Source: Candidatus Bathyarchaeota archaeon (GTDB lineage Archaea; Thermoproteota; Bathyarchaeia; 40CM-2-53-6). From it: a stretch of DNA of 64,000 nucleotides. The notes under the pieces were generated by a model, which worked only from the letters and a program-made list of their open reading frames with translations, did not search any database and had not been told where the DNA came from. Position numbers and translations under genes: made by a program. Below are positions 23,198 through 28,640 of the stretch, piece by piece; the first letter of the stretch is position 1; each line of letters starts with the position of its first letter. Location: contig VBBQ01000028.1 of assembly GCA_005888755.1 (NCBI GenBank), forward strand, positions 63,706-127,705, in the 5' to 3' direction.

Positions 23198-23625
23198 GTC
23201 CGACCTGAAGAAATCGTCTTGGACTCTAATCTAACTTCAGAGTCATGAAGATCTCATCTACGGATTATTCAAAACCAGCAGCCCTAGAGAGCATCAACAA
23301 ATTGCCTAATTCGTAACACGAATCTGAAGACTGCGGCGGTTATTCTAACACGTCAAGATTTCATTCTAACGGAACCCTGAAACATCCCCCGGAAAAGCAT
23401 CAGGATTCAAGAGTTGACAGGCGCTTGAGAGGGACTAGAGGGCCGATAGAGAGAATGAAAAGGGCTAACACCATGATCCGAAAGGTCCGAAGCGACGCCG
23501 TGGAATGGACGCTCGCCTTCGACTCTGTTGAACGCCATAATCTCGACCTACTTTGCCAGAGATGATGAGGATAGGAGGAGCCAGCTCTTAACGATTAAAT
23601 AACGAGTAAGCGATCTAGGCTCGTC
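23198..23625 (+). other. Gene-free stretch ending in the cupin promoter
   Basis: I see no convincing coding frame or structured RNA in most of this interval. Near its end GATTAAATAAC (about 23592-23602) is a reasonable TATA element 29 bp before the cupin ATG at 23626. Confidence 0.45.
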
Positions 23626-24081
23626 ATGATAACAGCTCAGGATGCTAGTTTTGTCTCACCGGGTGAAGGAAAGAAGTGTAACGTTTTCGCGGATACGATC
23701 ACGATTAAGGTACCGAGTGAAATGACCGGTGGCGCGTATTCAATATCCGAGGATGTCACCCCCGCTGGACAAGGCGCACCACTGCACATACATCGTCGCG
23801 AACTAGAGACGTTCATTGTCCTGGAGGGAGAGTACGAATTCCAATGCGGCGACCGTAAGTTCAAAGCAACTAAAGGGACGATTGTCGTTCTACCAAGAGA
23901 GGCACCGCACGCTTTCAAGAATACCGGGAATACCATAGGCAAGACTCTCGTCGTTCTGGTACCAGGTGGGATGGAGAAAGTGTTCGAGGATATCAGCGCG
24001 ATGCCGCCGGGACCACCGGACATAGGAAAGGTCAACGCGATCACGACGAAATATGGAGTCGAGTTCCTCCCAATCGGCTAG
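23626..24081 (+). CDS. Cupin-domain protein
   Basis: A 151-residue single-domain cupin. Motif 1 is visible as PLHIHRRELETFIVLEGEYEF (metal-type ligands His, His, Glu; residues 53-75) and motif 2 as LPREAPHAFKNTG (His; residues 88-100). It could be a metal-dependent dioxygenase, isomerase or sensor; the sequence does not decide. It stands alone with its own promoter at the left edge of the accessory region. Confidence 0.8.
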   Translation: MITAQDASFVSPGEGKKCNVFADTITIKVPSEMTGGAYSISEDVTPAGQGAPLHIHRRELETFIVLEGEYEFQCGDRKFKATKGTIVVLPREAPHAFKNTGNTIGKTLVVLVPGGMEKVFEDISAMPPGPPDIGKVNAITTKYGVEFLPIG

Positions 24082-24755
24082 CTTGATAGCCCCTTTCACA
24101 CGTCCGATACAGATTGGCCGGTCGACACGTCAGAAGAACCGTTGTCGAGATTTGTAGTCCAATGCATGTCTAGGGCATATTCCCACTACGAGGTAGGACT
24201 CTCTCATCCAGGGATGAGATTACCTATGGGAAAGGGCTCGAAATTTGAGTTTTGACCGAAGCGAACGAACGCAACGCCAGCAGCTGCCTGAGGATGTGGC
24301 GATGACCTAATCTCCCGAAAGAGACGGGATAGTCCGTGAGGTGGGATTCGCGCACCAGCTTACCGCTACATACAAGCTGCCTTACCCTTGGCCCGTAGTC
24401 GAGCCGAGAAAGATCCTTCCTGGCTCACAGTGCCAGACCCAAAGTCCAAGTGATGCGGTGCGCCACCAGCGCACCACCCTTTAGATTCAAATCGCTACCC
24501 GATTTCCAAGAATTTTGTTCGTCTCTGATGAGGTTTGGCTCCTCTCATTCAGATAGTCACAGGCCTGAACTGGATTGTGTTCGAGCGGGACGATTTTCAA
24601 AACATCCCGGCAGGCATTGTCAGATTCCTAAGACTAGTTGAGACCTGTCTCGAACTCAATCGTTTGCAAGGTTCTGAACCCGTTCAACCACAATGACTCG
24701 GTGCTCTCTCCCAATCGTAAGGCAGAAAAGACTATGGCCTAAACGCCTTGGGCCA
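24082..24755. other. Long gene-free region with strong secondary structure
   Basis: No credible protein frame is present. From about 24185 to 24450 the plus strand is dense in hairpins: CTCATC/GATGAG nested inside TAGG/CCTA and TTCCCA/TGGGAA (about 24200-24233), TCCCG/CGGGA near 24315-24331, CAGCTT/AAGCTG near 24357-24380, and GAGCC/GGCTC near 24401-24426. This pattern suggests a non-coding RNA. I tested it by eye for the conserved cores of RNase P RNA, SRP RNA and 5S rRNA and found none. A repeat copy (24453-24541) follows. Confidence 0.4.
24453..24541 (-). repeat. Dispersed repeat, copy R1 (inverted relative to R2)
   Basis: About 88 bp whose reverse complement matches R2 at 24884-24972 at roughly 80 percent by eye, including GCGATTTG, TCTAAAGG and a GC-rich end. 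That end forms a hairpin on the plus strand (GGTGCGC and GCGCACC around CACCA). R1 and R2 flank the tRNA-Gly gene in opposite orientation. Confidence 0.6.
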
Positions 24756-24877
24756 GCGGCCGTAGTCTAGCCTGGTCTAGGACATAGCCCTGAAGGCGTC
24801 CAATGGGCTTCCAACCCAACGACCCGGGAAGCCGTCTAAACAACGGCTCGGGACTTCAAATCCCGGCGGCCGCACCA
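24756..24877 (+). tRNA. tRNA-Gly (UCC) with two non-canonical introns
   Basis: The gene encodes acceptor stem GCGGCCG (24756-24762) pairing with CGGCCGC (24867-24873), discriminator A and a templated CCA. The D-arm is GTCTAGCCTGGTCTAGGAC. A cloverleaf forms only after removal of 18 nt at 24786-24803 (between positions 27 and 28) and 26 nt at 24829-24854 (between 53 and 54). The product then has anticodon stem TTGGG/CCCAA, loop CTTCCAA with anticodon UCC (24810-24812), and T-arm CCGGG-TTCAAAT-CCCGG; 78 nt including CCA. Intron 1 has central helix GGAC/GTCC between bulges AT|A and AA|T. Intron 2 has CCCG/CGGG between GG|A and AC|T. Both fit the archaeal splicing endonuclease. Confidence 0.9.
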
Positions 24878-24883
24878 AACTAG

Positions 24884-24972
24884 GCCAAATCTCACACAAG
24901 CACGAACAAAAAATTTGAAAATCGGGTTGCGATTTGCACCTAAAGGTTGGTGCGCTAGTACCGCACCGCACT
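24884..24972 (+). repeat. Dispersed repeat, copy R2
   Basis: Begins 6 bp after the tRNA CCA end. It shares GCCAAA, ACGAACAAA, GAAAATCGG, GCGATTTG and GGTGCGC with R1 (inverted) and GAAAATCGG plus TGCGATTTGCAC with R3 at 28340-28396. The end folds as GGTGCG/CGCACC. The rest of the interval up to 25242 holds no gene that I can support. Confidence 0.6.
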
Positions 24973-25206
24973 AAGCGGGAAAGACGCCGGTCAGTTCCAG
25001 AGAATGGACTTATCGGTTGACGAAATGCATGACTCAGTGCGACCGACCAACCAGACTTTTGCAGGTGAGGCTCTCCCTCGCATTGTTTACGCCTTCATTG
25101 CCGCAATTGTCTCCATGTCACTGTCGGGTGGGAGCGTCAGGACCGCGAGAGAGGTGTAGTCTCTTTTGGCGTGAAACAACGCTCGAGCTGTAGAAGAGAA
25201 ATTCCC

Positions 25207-25214
25207 AAAAAAAA
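25207..25214 (-). terminator. U-tract terminator of the BNR-repeat gene
   Basis: Eight A on the plus strand give a run of eight T on the minus strand, 29 nt past the stop of the BNR-repeat gene. This matches archaeal poly-U termination. Confidence 0.65.
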
Positions 25215-25242
25215 GAGGGGAGGGTCAGCCCTAACGTTCGGT

Positions 25243-26964
25243 TCACGTACCTAGGATTCGTGTCGCGATGGTTGCCGGGGTTCGCGTTGTCATGTCAGGA
25301 AGCGTAGGCATTACCGTCACGGCAAAGCTGTCTCTTCCTGCCAGAACCGGTCCCGTAAGAGTGGTGGGTGCCACGGCGAGCATGGTGGCGGTCGTCGTGA
25401 TGATGACACCCGGGCCCCCGGTCTGGACTGCAATGTTCGTGTGCTCACAGTCGATATCGTTGGTAGTGTCTCGCGTACAGAATGGGCTTGTAGATGACCG
25501 ACGGGTCGCAGGCTCTGCGGTACTGTCCACGAACTGGTCAGACGTGTAGATAATTGCAGCGAGGCCGGTAGTCGGACTCGCAGCTACACCGAAGTCGTCG
25601 AGCAGGTCCCTGTTTCCGGTGCAGGTAACACCGGATTCGCACACGCCGCCGTAGTGTATTATTCCTGATGCCGCGATTTGGCTCCAGGTGCTTCCCGGGG
25701 TAGTTGCCTTGAGGTTCTGGCTGAAGTAGACCTTCCATGCGGCTGTCATCGGGTAGTTGTCCGGTGGGTTTACGCCGTCGAAGTAGTTTGTCCCGTACCA
25801 TACTACATCCAGCGCGCCATCGCTTCCCGCGCTGCTCCAGGGGAAGATGGCTGTTTTAGACTGTCCTTTGTTGATTTGGAACGGCCCGGACCAGGTTTGT
25901 CCGAGGGTCTTGGAGAAGCTGTAGAAGATGTTGTGGTTGTCGCTGTAGACGACGTAGATATTTCCAGCGATGTCAACGCTCACGTTGATGAACTGGTGGC
26001 CATAGTCAAGATTGGTGTTCGGGTTGTTGTACACTATGGTGTCGGTGAACGTCAGACCCCCGTCGGTGGATACGGCTATCCAAACTGTGTGAACATGGCA
26101 GAAGATTGTGCACTGGGCCAACTCTGCAGCACTCGCAACGGAGCTGAATACTTGGTAAACCGCATGGTTCCGTGGGTCTATGGCTAGGTTGCCGATAACG
26201 TTGTTGAACCCGGCCAGGAAAGCCACGTGTGCTGGGTCAAACGCGTTTCCCGTCTGGGTGAAAGTGGCCCCACCGTCCAGGCTGCACGTGACGAAAATAT
26301 CGTTGGTGGCCGAAATAGCATGGTAGGACACGCACACTTTGTCAGCCCCATCGGCAGCGATCCACTCCCGGTCATCAACTGGAATGCTAGCTCCGGTTGG
26401 GTTGAGAAGCCACGAGCCGCCTCCGTCTTTGCTCGTAGACACGTAAACATTCGCTAGCGGAGGGGAGGTGGCTAAACTTGCTGCGTAGATGTTGAAGAAG
26501 CCGTTCAGGTTTCGAACAGGCGCGACCGCAATGTCAGTATCACCGCCCGCAGGAGAGAATCCAATCCTCCCCGAGGACGCACTGTTCGGCAAAGGAAGAG
26601 TGGTGAAGTGTTGGCCGCCGTCGGTTGACTTGTAGGCGAAGGTCCCACCGCACTGCCCACCGATGACGCAGAACACGTTCTCCGACGAACCGTAGAAGCT
26701 GCCATCAGGGGCTGCCCGAATTGATGGTTCTCCCTCCGTGTTCATACAGGTCCGAAGAGAGTTGGGGCAGGTCGTACCTACACTGGCACCGGTTGTGAAC
26801 GGGTTCCCGGCGAGCTCATAGTTGCTGAAGGTCGGGGTCTTCGTGGAGCCTCCGTCCGCGGAGGCTGGCTGAAGGGCGCCCGGGGCTAGAAACATTAAGC
26901 CTGCAAGGGACAGAATTGAGAGAAGAGTTGTCTTGGCTATTCGTGAAGTGTTCGGAATTTTCAT
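25243..26964 (-). CDS. Secreted BNR/sialidase-like repeat protein
   Basis: A 573-residue protein with an N-terminal signal peptide (basic start, then TTLLSILSLAGLMFLAPGAL, cleavage near ASA at residue 35). It has at least four Asp-box (BNR) repeats of the SxDGGxxF/W type: STDGGQHFTT, SKDGGGSWLL, SLDGGATFTQ and STDGGLTFTD. This implies a six-bladed beta-propeller exported from the cell. The sialidase catalytic Arg triad cannot be assigned, so enzymatic activity is open. The C-terminus is rich in Thr, Val and Pro. TTATAGGG on the minus strand about 25 bp before the ATG is a likely TATA element. Confidence 0.78.
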   Translation of the reverse strand: MKIPNTSRIAKTTLLSILSLAGLMFLAPGALQPASADGGSTKTPTFSNYELAGNPFTTGASVGTTCPNSLRTCMNTEGEPSIRAAPDGSFYGSSENVFCVIGGQCGGTFAYKSTDGGQHFTTLPLPNSASSGRIGFSPAGGDTDIAVAPVRNLNGFFNIYAASLATSPPLANVYVSTSKDGGGSWLLNPTGASIPVDDREWIAADGADKVCVSYHAISATNDIFVTCSLDGGATFTQTGNAFDPAHVAFLAGFNNVIGNLAIDPRNHAVYQVFSSVASAAELAQCTIFCHVHTVWIAVSTDGGLTFTDTIVYNNPNTNLDYGHQFINVSVDIAGNIYVVYSDNHNIFYSFSKTLGQTWSGPFQINKGQSKTAIFPWSSAGSDGALDVVWYGTNYFDGVNPPDNYPMTAAWKVYFSQNLKATTPGSTWSQIAASGIIHYGGVCESGVTCTGNRDLLDDFGVAASPTTGLAAIIYTSDQFVDSTAEPATRRSSTSPFCTRDTTNDIDCEHTNIAVQTGGPGVIITTTATMLAVAPTTLTGPVLAGRDSFAVTVMPTLPDMTTRTPATIATRILGT

Positions 26965-27131
26965 AAGGGGGTTCAGCGGACGGGCACCCTATAACCAATA
27001 TTCCGCACGGCAACATTCTCGGAACACGAAATTTTCGGGTTTCGATATATCGGGTGGCGACAGCTTTCTGAGCTATCGGGGTATTATGAACGGCATTTTG
27101 CCCAAGGATATAGTTTATTCTTCTATATGCG

Positions 27132-27149
27132 CGTCTCATGGTTGAGACG
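27132..27149. promoter_or_regulatory. Inverted repeat, probable operator of the AbiE-like pair
   Basis: CGTCTC and GAGACG form a perfect 6-bp inverted repeat with a 6-nt centre, ending 2 bp before the TATA box at 27152. A repressor bound here would block promoter recognition. AbiEi antitoxins are known to autoregulate through inverted repeats, so the first gene product is the likely ligand. Confidence 0.6.
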
Positions 27150-27151
27150 TA

Positions 27152-27159
27152 TTTATATA
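27152..27159 (+). promoter_or_regulatory. TATA box of the AbiE-like operon
   Basis: TTTATATA centred 27.5 bp before ATG 27183 is an ideal archaeal TATA box for a leaderless transcript. It also decides the start: an upstream ATG at 27138 would place the TATA box inside the gene. Confidence 0.75.
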
Positions 27160-27182
27160 TCTACCAACACGCATATCCATGC

Positions 27183-27845
27183 ATGACACTAAGGCCGGAA
27201 CTAACGATAGCACAGACAATCGGAGAAAAACCAGTTTACCACATAAATGAGCTGCGCAAGATAACCGATTCTCGAGCTACAGCGTATAGGATATTGAGCA
27301 AACTCCGGGAAGCTGGATTTGCGGAGCAAATTAAAGAAGGCTATTTCACAATTCGTTCCAGTCTGTTTCAACCATTCAATCTTTGGTCGAATCTCCTTCC
27401 ATCATTGCAAGCCCTAAAGCAAGCGCGGTTTTTTGGCTTGTCCTACAATGAAAACGATGTGAGACTCGCTATACAAATATTGAAAGGCGTCATAACGTTG
27501 GATTATCGCGCATACGAACTTACGAAGCTCCAATCTCCGCGTTTGCTTTTCATTTATGTTGACGATGTTGACCAAGCAGCAAGAACGCTGAGAGAACACA
27601 AGTTCTCGGAAGGCACGCAGGGTAGAGTAGTCATCATCCCGCGGATAGGAGTGTTCAGAAATGAGATCCAGCGGGTCTACCTCGATTGCATTGCTTATGG
27701 AGGAAGAAGTTTACTCGATGCCATCGCGATTGAGATCGTTCACAATGAAAGTCTGGATCCCCATGTACGAGGAATCTTCAAGGCCGAAGATGTACTGAAG
27801 GTCAGAGATGAGCTTGGCGCCCAGTCTGGAACAAGAAGCGATTAA
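27183..27845 (+). CDS. AbiEi-like antitoxin / winged-helix regulator
   Basis: A 220-residue protein with an N-terminal winged helix (PVYHINELRKITDSRATAYRILSKLREAGFAEQI, then YFTIRSSLF) and a C-terminal domain of the AbiEi antitoxin type. It overlaps a nucleotidyltransferase gene by 38 bp, the usual layout of AbiE toxin-antitoxin modules. Codon and base use are more AT-rich than the surroundings, consistent with transfer. The start at 27183 is chosen from the TATA box position. It probably neutralises the toxin and represses its own promoter. Confidence 0.72.
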   Translation: MTLRPELTIAQTIGEKPVYHINELRKITDSRATAYRILSKLREAGFAEQIKEGYFTIRSSLFQPFNLWSNLLPSLQALKQARFFGLSYNENDVRLAIQILKGVITLDYRAYELTKLQSPRLLFIYVDDVDQAARTLREHKFSEGTQGRVVIIPRIGVFRNEIQRVYLDCIAYGGRSLLDAIAIEIVHNESLDPHVRGIFKAEDVLKVRDELGAQSGTRSD

Positions 27846-28311
27846 GATAACCGATGAGCTTGGCAGGGTGGTTTTTGTCGGCGCATTTGCCGTAAACCAT
27901 TATTCCAAGTATCGAACGACAAGAGACATTGATTTAGCGATAGCTGCACCGTTGAATGAACAAAAACTAACCCGTTTGGGATACACAAAATGGCAAGGAT
28001 CTAAGGGATCGTGGCTCACCTCCCGCGGAATTAAGGTCGATTTCTACACGAGAGACGTGGGAGGGATACCTGTGCCTTGGATTTTGAAAAACGCAGTTCA
28101 ACTAAGGCTTGGGGAGAAGGAAGTCAGGGTTATTTGCTTGGAGGGACTAATACTCGCAAAGCACAGAGCAGGACGCACCGCGGATGTAGCTGACCTAAGG
28201 CAACTGATGATTCATCGGGGCGGGACTGTTGTGTGGGACCTTATGGCGGAAATCGCGACGGATCATGAAATAGCTGAGTTGCAGCGAATCTCCAAGGCCT
28301 TTGCGCCCTAG
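27808..28311 (+). CDS. AbiEii-like nucleotidyltransferase, probable toxin
   Basis: A 167-residue minimal nucleotidyltransferase. The core motif is FVGAFAVNHYSKYRTTRDIDLAI (residues 23-45: glycine-containing helix start, then the Asp-x-Asp metal pair), with a further Asp in IKVDFYTRDVGG near residue 70 and ARHRAG/DVADLRQL-like helices after it. AbiEii toxins transfer nucleotides to tRNA acceptor ends. This protein is shorter than the classical AbiEii, so target and toxicity are inferred from family and operon partner. Confidence 0.7.
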   Translation: MSLAPSLEQEAIKITDELGRVVFVGAFAVNHYSKYRTTRDIDLAIAAPLNEQKLTRLGYTKWQGSKGSWLTSRGIKVDFYTRDVGGIPVPWILKNAVQLRLGEKEVRVICLEGLILAKHRAGRTADVADLRQLMIHRGGTVVWDLMAEIATDHEIAELQRISKAFAP

Positions 28312-28640
28312 CGTGTTGTAACCTCTGGGTGGATAACCCGAAAATCGGTCTCCGTATGCGATTTGCACTTATGCTAGGTGTCCGGCGGCCGCACCATGTC
28401 ACCTGCCCTGCTTCGTTGCGGGCTCCATGTCTGGGTCTGGTTTGAAACTTGAGCTTCTAACAGGCTTACCTGGGATTGGAGTTGTTCCGATTCGTGCTAC
28501 GAGGTTGCTGTTTGTTCCGCCGAGTTGTGAGTTGAACGTTTGAATCTGTGAGATCTGAGTGTTTAGTGACGAAATTTGGGCGTTCAAAGAGTCGTGTCGA
28601 CCCTTTTTTCGTCAGACTCATTAGCAAATGTTATTCGATC
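28312..28640. other. Repeat copy R3, tRNA-Gly 3'-end duplicate and a coding remnant
   Basis: R3 (28340-28396, plus) shares GAAAATCGG and TGCGATTTGCAC with R2 and ends in CCGGCGGCCGCACCA (28382-28396), identical over 15 nt to the 3' end of tRNA-Gly (24863-24877). Downstream, the minus strand at 28399-28587 encodes a short coiled-coil-like stretch (LNAQISSLNTQISQIQ, then a Pro/Lys-rich tail to a TGA). It has no clear start or promoter and looks like the tail of a lost gene. Nothing else is seen. Confidence 0.5.

Follow-up and report, generated by a model that had tools for sequence, protein, structure and literature searches.

A tRNA-Gly(UCC) gene with two BHB introns in a member of the Bathyarchaeia

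The tRNA-Gly(UCC) locus and its splice junctions

The window, meaning the whole 64-kb stretch of DNA that was analysed, contains a tRNA-Gly(UCC) gene with three exons and two introns (Table 1). The coordinates that had been given for the gene and for both introns in a first-pass annotation of the same DNA were all right on re-reading of the sequence. Removal of the two introns leaves a joined exon sequence of 78 nt, GCGGCCGTAGTCTAGCCTGGTCTAGGACATTGGGCTTCCAACCCAACGACCCGGGTTCAAATCCCGGCGGCCGCACCA, in which the canonical positions 27 and 53 correspond to mature nucleotides 30 and 55. The annotation had stated that every stem pairs once the introns are gone, and all 21 of the 21 stem pairs are indeed closed in the spliced 78-mer, with a single G-U pair located in the D stem. 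ARAGORN calls this sequence tRNA-Gly(tcc), with a complete cloverleaf and a valid anticodon.

Table 1. Exons, introns and splice-junction helices of the tRNA-Gly(UCC) gene, in window coordinates
Feature	Position	Strand	Length	Description
Exon 1	24756..24785	+	30 nt	Acceptor 5' strand and D arm; positions 1-27
Intron 1	24786..24803	+	18 nt	At 27/28
Exon 2	24804..24828	+	25 nt	Positions 28-53; anticodon UCC at 24810-24812
Intron 2	24829..24854	+	26 nt	At 53/54
Exon 3	24855..24877	+	23 nt	T loop, T stem 3' strand, acceptor 3' strand, discriminator and encoded CCA
Intron 1 BHB	24780-24783 with 24798-24801	+		H helix; bulges 24784-24786 and 24802-24804; outer helix none
Intron 1 inner helix	24787-24789 with 24795-24797	+	3 bp	
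Intron 2 BHB	24823-24826 with 24849-24852	+		H helix; bulges 24827-24829 and 24853-24855
Intron 2 inner helix	24830-24835 with 24843-24848	+	6 bp	
Intron 2 outer helix	24821-24822 with 24856-24857	+	2 bp	

At both junctions 3-nt bulges flank a 4-bp helix and the cut follows the second bulge base. In junction 1 the 3' strand of the D stem, GGAC, pairs with GTCC and the bulges are ATA and AAT; in junction 2 CCCG pairs with CGGG and the bulges are GGA and ACT. The helix, the bulges and the cut position are thus as had been described, but the accompanying claim that both junctions are strict endonuclease substrates holds for junction 2 only. The definition that separates the strict hBHBh' from the relaxed HBh' motif (PMC7714728) requires of the strict form an outer and an inner helix with at least 2 Watson-Crick pairs each. 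By this definition junction 2 (outer 2, inner 6) is a strict hBHBh' motif and junction 1 (outer 0) is a relaxed HBh' motif. With no outer helix and two conserved inner pairs, junction 1 is weak as a substrate.

Because each motif uses an exon strand that comes wholly or partly from a mature stem, the BHB and the mature stem compete at both junctions. The minimum-energy fold of the unspliced RNA includes a hairpin of intron 1, in which the GGAC-GTCC helix is formed, and a hairpin of intron 2. The CGGG of intron 2 is paired with the 3' strand of the T stem in this fold, and the complete junction 2 BHB is absent from it.

The prediction that simple tRNA finders miss the gene proved correct. ARAGORN reported 0 tRNAs in the raw 64-kb window and Rfam at gathering thresholds gave 0 matches in it, and in a whole-genome Rfam search the locus reached 26.9 bits, which is under the gathering score of 29. 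A BHB scan of both strands of the window that permitted up to two introns per tRNA, the kind of search that had been recommended as a check, gave exactly one match, and this was the tRNA-Gly(UCC) locus. The same scan made no call at all in any of 300 dinucleotide shuffles of the window (0/300), and chance BHB matches were therefore rejected as the source of the reading. Since the gene is invisible to ordinary finders, an annotation made with them would omit tRNA-Gly(UCC) and falsely suggest an organism without a tRNA for GGA codons.

Conservation and distribution of the introns

Glycine tRNA matches were found in 20 of the 21 family genomes that were searched. The UCC gene is complete with both introns in 14 genomes of the genus, representing 13 distinct sequences, and the only exon variation in the alignment of these 13 is at one pair, where G31-C39 is replaced by C31-G39 in a compensatory change. 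The H helices of both junctions are paired in 13/13 sequences. In intron 1 the loop and the length vary, and the GGAC-GTCC helix (with one G-U) and a 2-bp inner helix are kept; these two inner pairs are invariant and the third is unpaired in 4 of 10 sequences, the inner helix being little informative on compensatory change. In intron 2 the H helix is unchanged and the inner helix has two-sided changes at four of its six pairs, with no pair broken. The covariation score for the whole structure was 0.156, compared with 0.077 in shuffles, none of which reached the observed value (0/500), and with at most 0.048 for slid versions of the structure.

In one genome (G013) the UCC gene (L048 1501-1600) stops at the start of intron 2 and is followed by an apparent RHS-repeat coding sequence; the break is either a misassembly or an insertion. 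About 40 nt upstream of the UCC gene the sequence AATCGTAA is kept in 14 of the 15 genomes of the genus, with CATCGTAA found in G015 (24696-24755 in the window studied here). The GCC gene instead has the TATA-like TTTAAATG at the corresponding upstream place. The conserved block upstream of the UCC gene may be an unusual promoter or an upstream RNA.

The distribution of the 27/28 intron was obtained with a class-wide pattern that allowed 0-28 inserted nt near this position, required the exact flanking sequence and covered 256 genomes. Every matching genome of family f1 carries the intron (15 in the genus, and G019). With these exact flanks, a UCC intron at 27/28 turned up in family f1 and in a single family f5 genome only, and it was absent from families f2 (G021, G023), f3 (G024, G025) and f4 (G027) of the same order and from many genomes outside it. 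A full reading of the tRNA-Gly(UCC) genes of G021, G023, G024, G025 and G027 showed that they are also without the 53/54 intron. The G024 gene (L219) has exactly the sequence predicted for the mature form of the gene in G009, and both splice junctions are thereby fixed by comparison. In the f5 genome (G028) the 27/28 intron is 14 nt long and has the same GGAC-GTCC helix; a 37/38 intron is also present, and the 53/54 intron is missing. G019 has both introns and in addition a 39-nt insert in the D loop, for which the boundaries were placed by eye and the motif is imperfect. Such related species with and without the introns form exact pairs for asking how tRNA introns arise.

Other Bathyarchaeia and a Njordarchaeum MAG were also found to have 53/54 introns in tRNA-Gly(GCC). 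The UCC 53/54 intron of G011, AAACCGCCTTAACAGCGGTTCGGGAC, differs by one mismatch from that of the GCC gene in G000 and clearly more from the other UCC introns (genes at L041 1501-1623 and L053 1501-1622). The G000 GCC intron, for its part, has the GAC end of the UCC introns. The sequences are short and suggestive only, and what they would suggest is a transfer of the 53/54 intron between UCC and GCC genes, most simply by gene conversion via the shared exons.

Taken as a history, the distribution can tentatively be read as a gain of the 27/28 intron within the order, with introns that are still moving and a 53/54 intron that the UCC and GCC genes exchange through conversion or transposition. 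It is rather unlikely that the introns are instead ancestral to the class, not gained in this order, and have been lost in most lineages. The 53/54 introns in the GCC genes of other Bathyarchaeia and of the Njordarchaeum MAG speak for an ancestral origin, but the UCC intron at 27/28, as far as the exact-flank pattern goes, is confined to f1 and a single f5 genome, with none in f2, f3, f4 or many other families. If the reading as gain and exchange is true, this lineage would allow the gain of tRNA introns to be studied in a non-thermophilic setting.

A second copy of the 15 nt that end exon 3, CCGGCGGCCGCACCA, lies at 28382-28396, and the 3' end of the tRNA gene has the appearance of an attachment site for a small integrated element (24878-28396 in the window). 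The sequence directly after the CCA is conserved at the UCC gene of G000, G002, G003 and G006 and at the GCC gene of G009 and G019, and not in the other relatives; G009 carries a 1.5-kb version of the element with the same kind of boundaries. No integrase was seen in the element. Two genes of the element overlap (27138-28311). One encodes a helix-turn-helix-like protein and the other a nucleotidyltransferase that matches AbiEii and DUF2204 weakly, a pairing reminiscent of type IV toxin-antitoxin or abortive-infection systems.

The region 23581-24539, upstream of the tRNA gene, holds an inverted copy of an element end of this kind, which appears to interrupt sequence continuous upstream in relatives. 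Two 69-nt arms, at 24454-24522 and 24902-24970, are 84% complementary. Between the segment that holds a cupin gene (23626-24081) and the G009 element adjoining its tRNA-Gly(GCC) the identity is 97%, which suggests a recent transfer.

Function and predicted splicing of the gene

The first-pass annotation had regarded another intact tRNA-Gly(UCC) elsewhere, together with a lack of spliced reads from the locus, as a sign that it is a pseudogene. The window belongs to a 2.0-Mb assembly that is 95% complete, and a search of this assembly with the mature sequence found no second tRNA-Gly(UCC). The remaining two glycine tRNA genes have the anticodons GCC and CCC, and both are interrupted, the GCC paralogue (C39:35283-35404, L053) by introns at 37/38 and 53/54 and the CCC gene (L030) by a D-loop intron and apparently by another at 37/38. 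A mechanical decoder of tRNA-like loci gave clean cloverleaves for 11 genes; nine of these are interrupted, seven of them by one or more introns at positions other than 37/38. Calls of the decoder beyond these 11 are not trusted, and for the other genes among the 11 the exact intron boundaries are decoder output. According to the decoder, tRNA-Asn(GUU) (L017 128-230) and tRNA-Ser(UGA) (L029 1501-1571) have three BHB introns each.

The genome encodes two PF01974 proteins, of 189 aa and 176 aa. The best match of the 189-aa protein is the EndA alpha subunit of Aeropyrum pernix (E 4e-42), and aligned to A. pernix 3p1z chain B it keeps the active-site Tyr, His and Lys. A further Lys, in 'IPKPKPDQDFE', stands in the alignment, and in the alignment only, opposite Lys44 of A. 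pernix 'VEKPRG-ADFE' in the Crenarchaea-specific loop (CSL); Lys44 of this specificity loop has been reported as necessary for cleaving relaxed motifs (PMC6379350). The 176-aa protein is a weaker match to EndA family structures and is without the GPGIDHAPF motif (His motif), as expected if it is the structural beta subunit. The heteromeric endonuclease that the annotation had proposed to look for is thus represented by sequence in the form of separate catalytic and structural subunits, and a catalytic alpha and a structural beta would together give an (alpha-beta)2 EndA, a type known to cut relaxed motifs.

It is extremely improbable that two insertions have turned the locus into a tRNA pseudogene and that GGA is decoded by another gene: the failure of standard finders to detect a gene there would fit such a reading, but across 14 genomes the exons hardly change, whereas the intron loops vary and the intron helices covary, no other UCC gene was found in the genome, and the insert ends fall exactly on BHB cut sites. 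There is just as little probability that one insertion alone is an intron and the other persists as an enlarged arm of the mature tRNA. Removal of intron 2 alone does produce a poor 96-nt ARAGORN call, but its anticodon is implausible and its anticodon stem is broken; both insertions lie exactly at BHB cut sites, and relatives carry the gene with neither insertion or with introns at 27/28 plus 37/38. The locus is almost certainly functional and the only tRNA-Gly(UCC) gene of this member of the Bathyarchaeia, with two introns of the protein-spliced BHB type. The original identification of a tRNA-Gly(UCC) with introns at 27/28 and 53/54 is supported by several independent lines: its uniqueness in the assembly searched, its conservation in 14 genomes, the covariation, the uninterrupted genes of relatives and the EndA subunits.

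The gene is presumably transcribed, and cleavage and ligation of the transcript would follow in the order given here. Each intron would supply a 4-nt strand that pairs with the exon directly upstream of the 5' cut, GUCC of intron 1 with the D-stem strand GGAC (positions 22-25) and CGGG of intron 2 with CCCG at the junction of the variable loop and the T stem. With these pairings in place, neither the D arm nor the T arm should be able to close before EndA has cut each 3-nt bulge. The exons would then be joined by tRNA ligase and the intron strands would depart, after which the D and T stems could close and give the normal cloverleaf. The relaxed junction 1 would be acceptable because the heteromeric (alpha-beta)2 EndA has the specificity loop.

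Comparison with known systems

In a pattern search of named genomes the near relatives were named Bathyarchaeota, Crenarchaeota and other MAGs, and were mostly Bathyarchaeota BA_ isolates with soil-depth scaffold names. The host is a member of the Bathyarchaeia close to soil MAGs and probably lives in soil itself, the environment being read from the scaffold names of the relatives. No report of tRNA introns in Bathyarchaeia was found in the open-licence papers searched, which is weak evidence. The introns are of a well-known archaeal kind, and the gene is near certain as a structure and modest as a discovery. It adds, also modestly, an intron at 27/28 that is restricted to a lineage, and indications that two glycine tRNA genes have exchanged introns.

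It is established that Thermoproteales and Thaumarchaeota have multiple introns in tRNA genes and introns at non-canonical positions (PMC8450103, PMC4033280). The Thermoproteales (Pyrobaculum and relatives) likewise have several short BHB introns per gene, 53/54 included (PMC4090602, PMC8450103, PMC4033280), and they likewise combine an (alpha-beta)2 EndA with a genome rich in interrupted tRNAs. The first-pass annotation had drawn a parallel to this order; the host here, however, belongs to the Bathyarchaeia, with near relatives named Bathyarchaeota, and is close to soil MAGs and not a hyperthermophile. A review (PMC4090602) names 53/54, whereas 27/28 is absent from the positions named in its list, which ends in 'etc.'.

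The tRNA-Gly(GCC) paralogue of the same genome likewise has a 53/54 intron of 26 nt, with a similar sequence and the same exon 3, but its other intron is the canonical 37/38. In the soil Asgard archaea Atabeyarchaeia and Freyarchaeia introns are present in 92-95% of the tRNA genes (PMC11291895). They resemble the present case in living in soil, in the non-canonical positions and in often having several introns per gene (PMC11291895), but belong to a different phylum. With the gene described here, an intron-heavy style of tRNA that is known chiefly from hyperthermophiles is also seen in a group of soil archaea.
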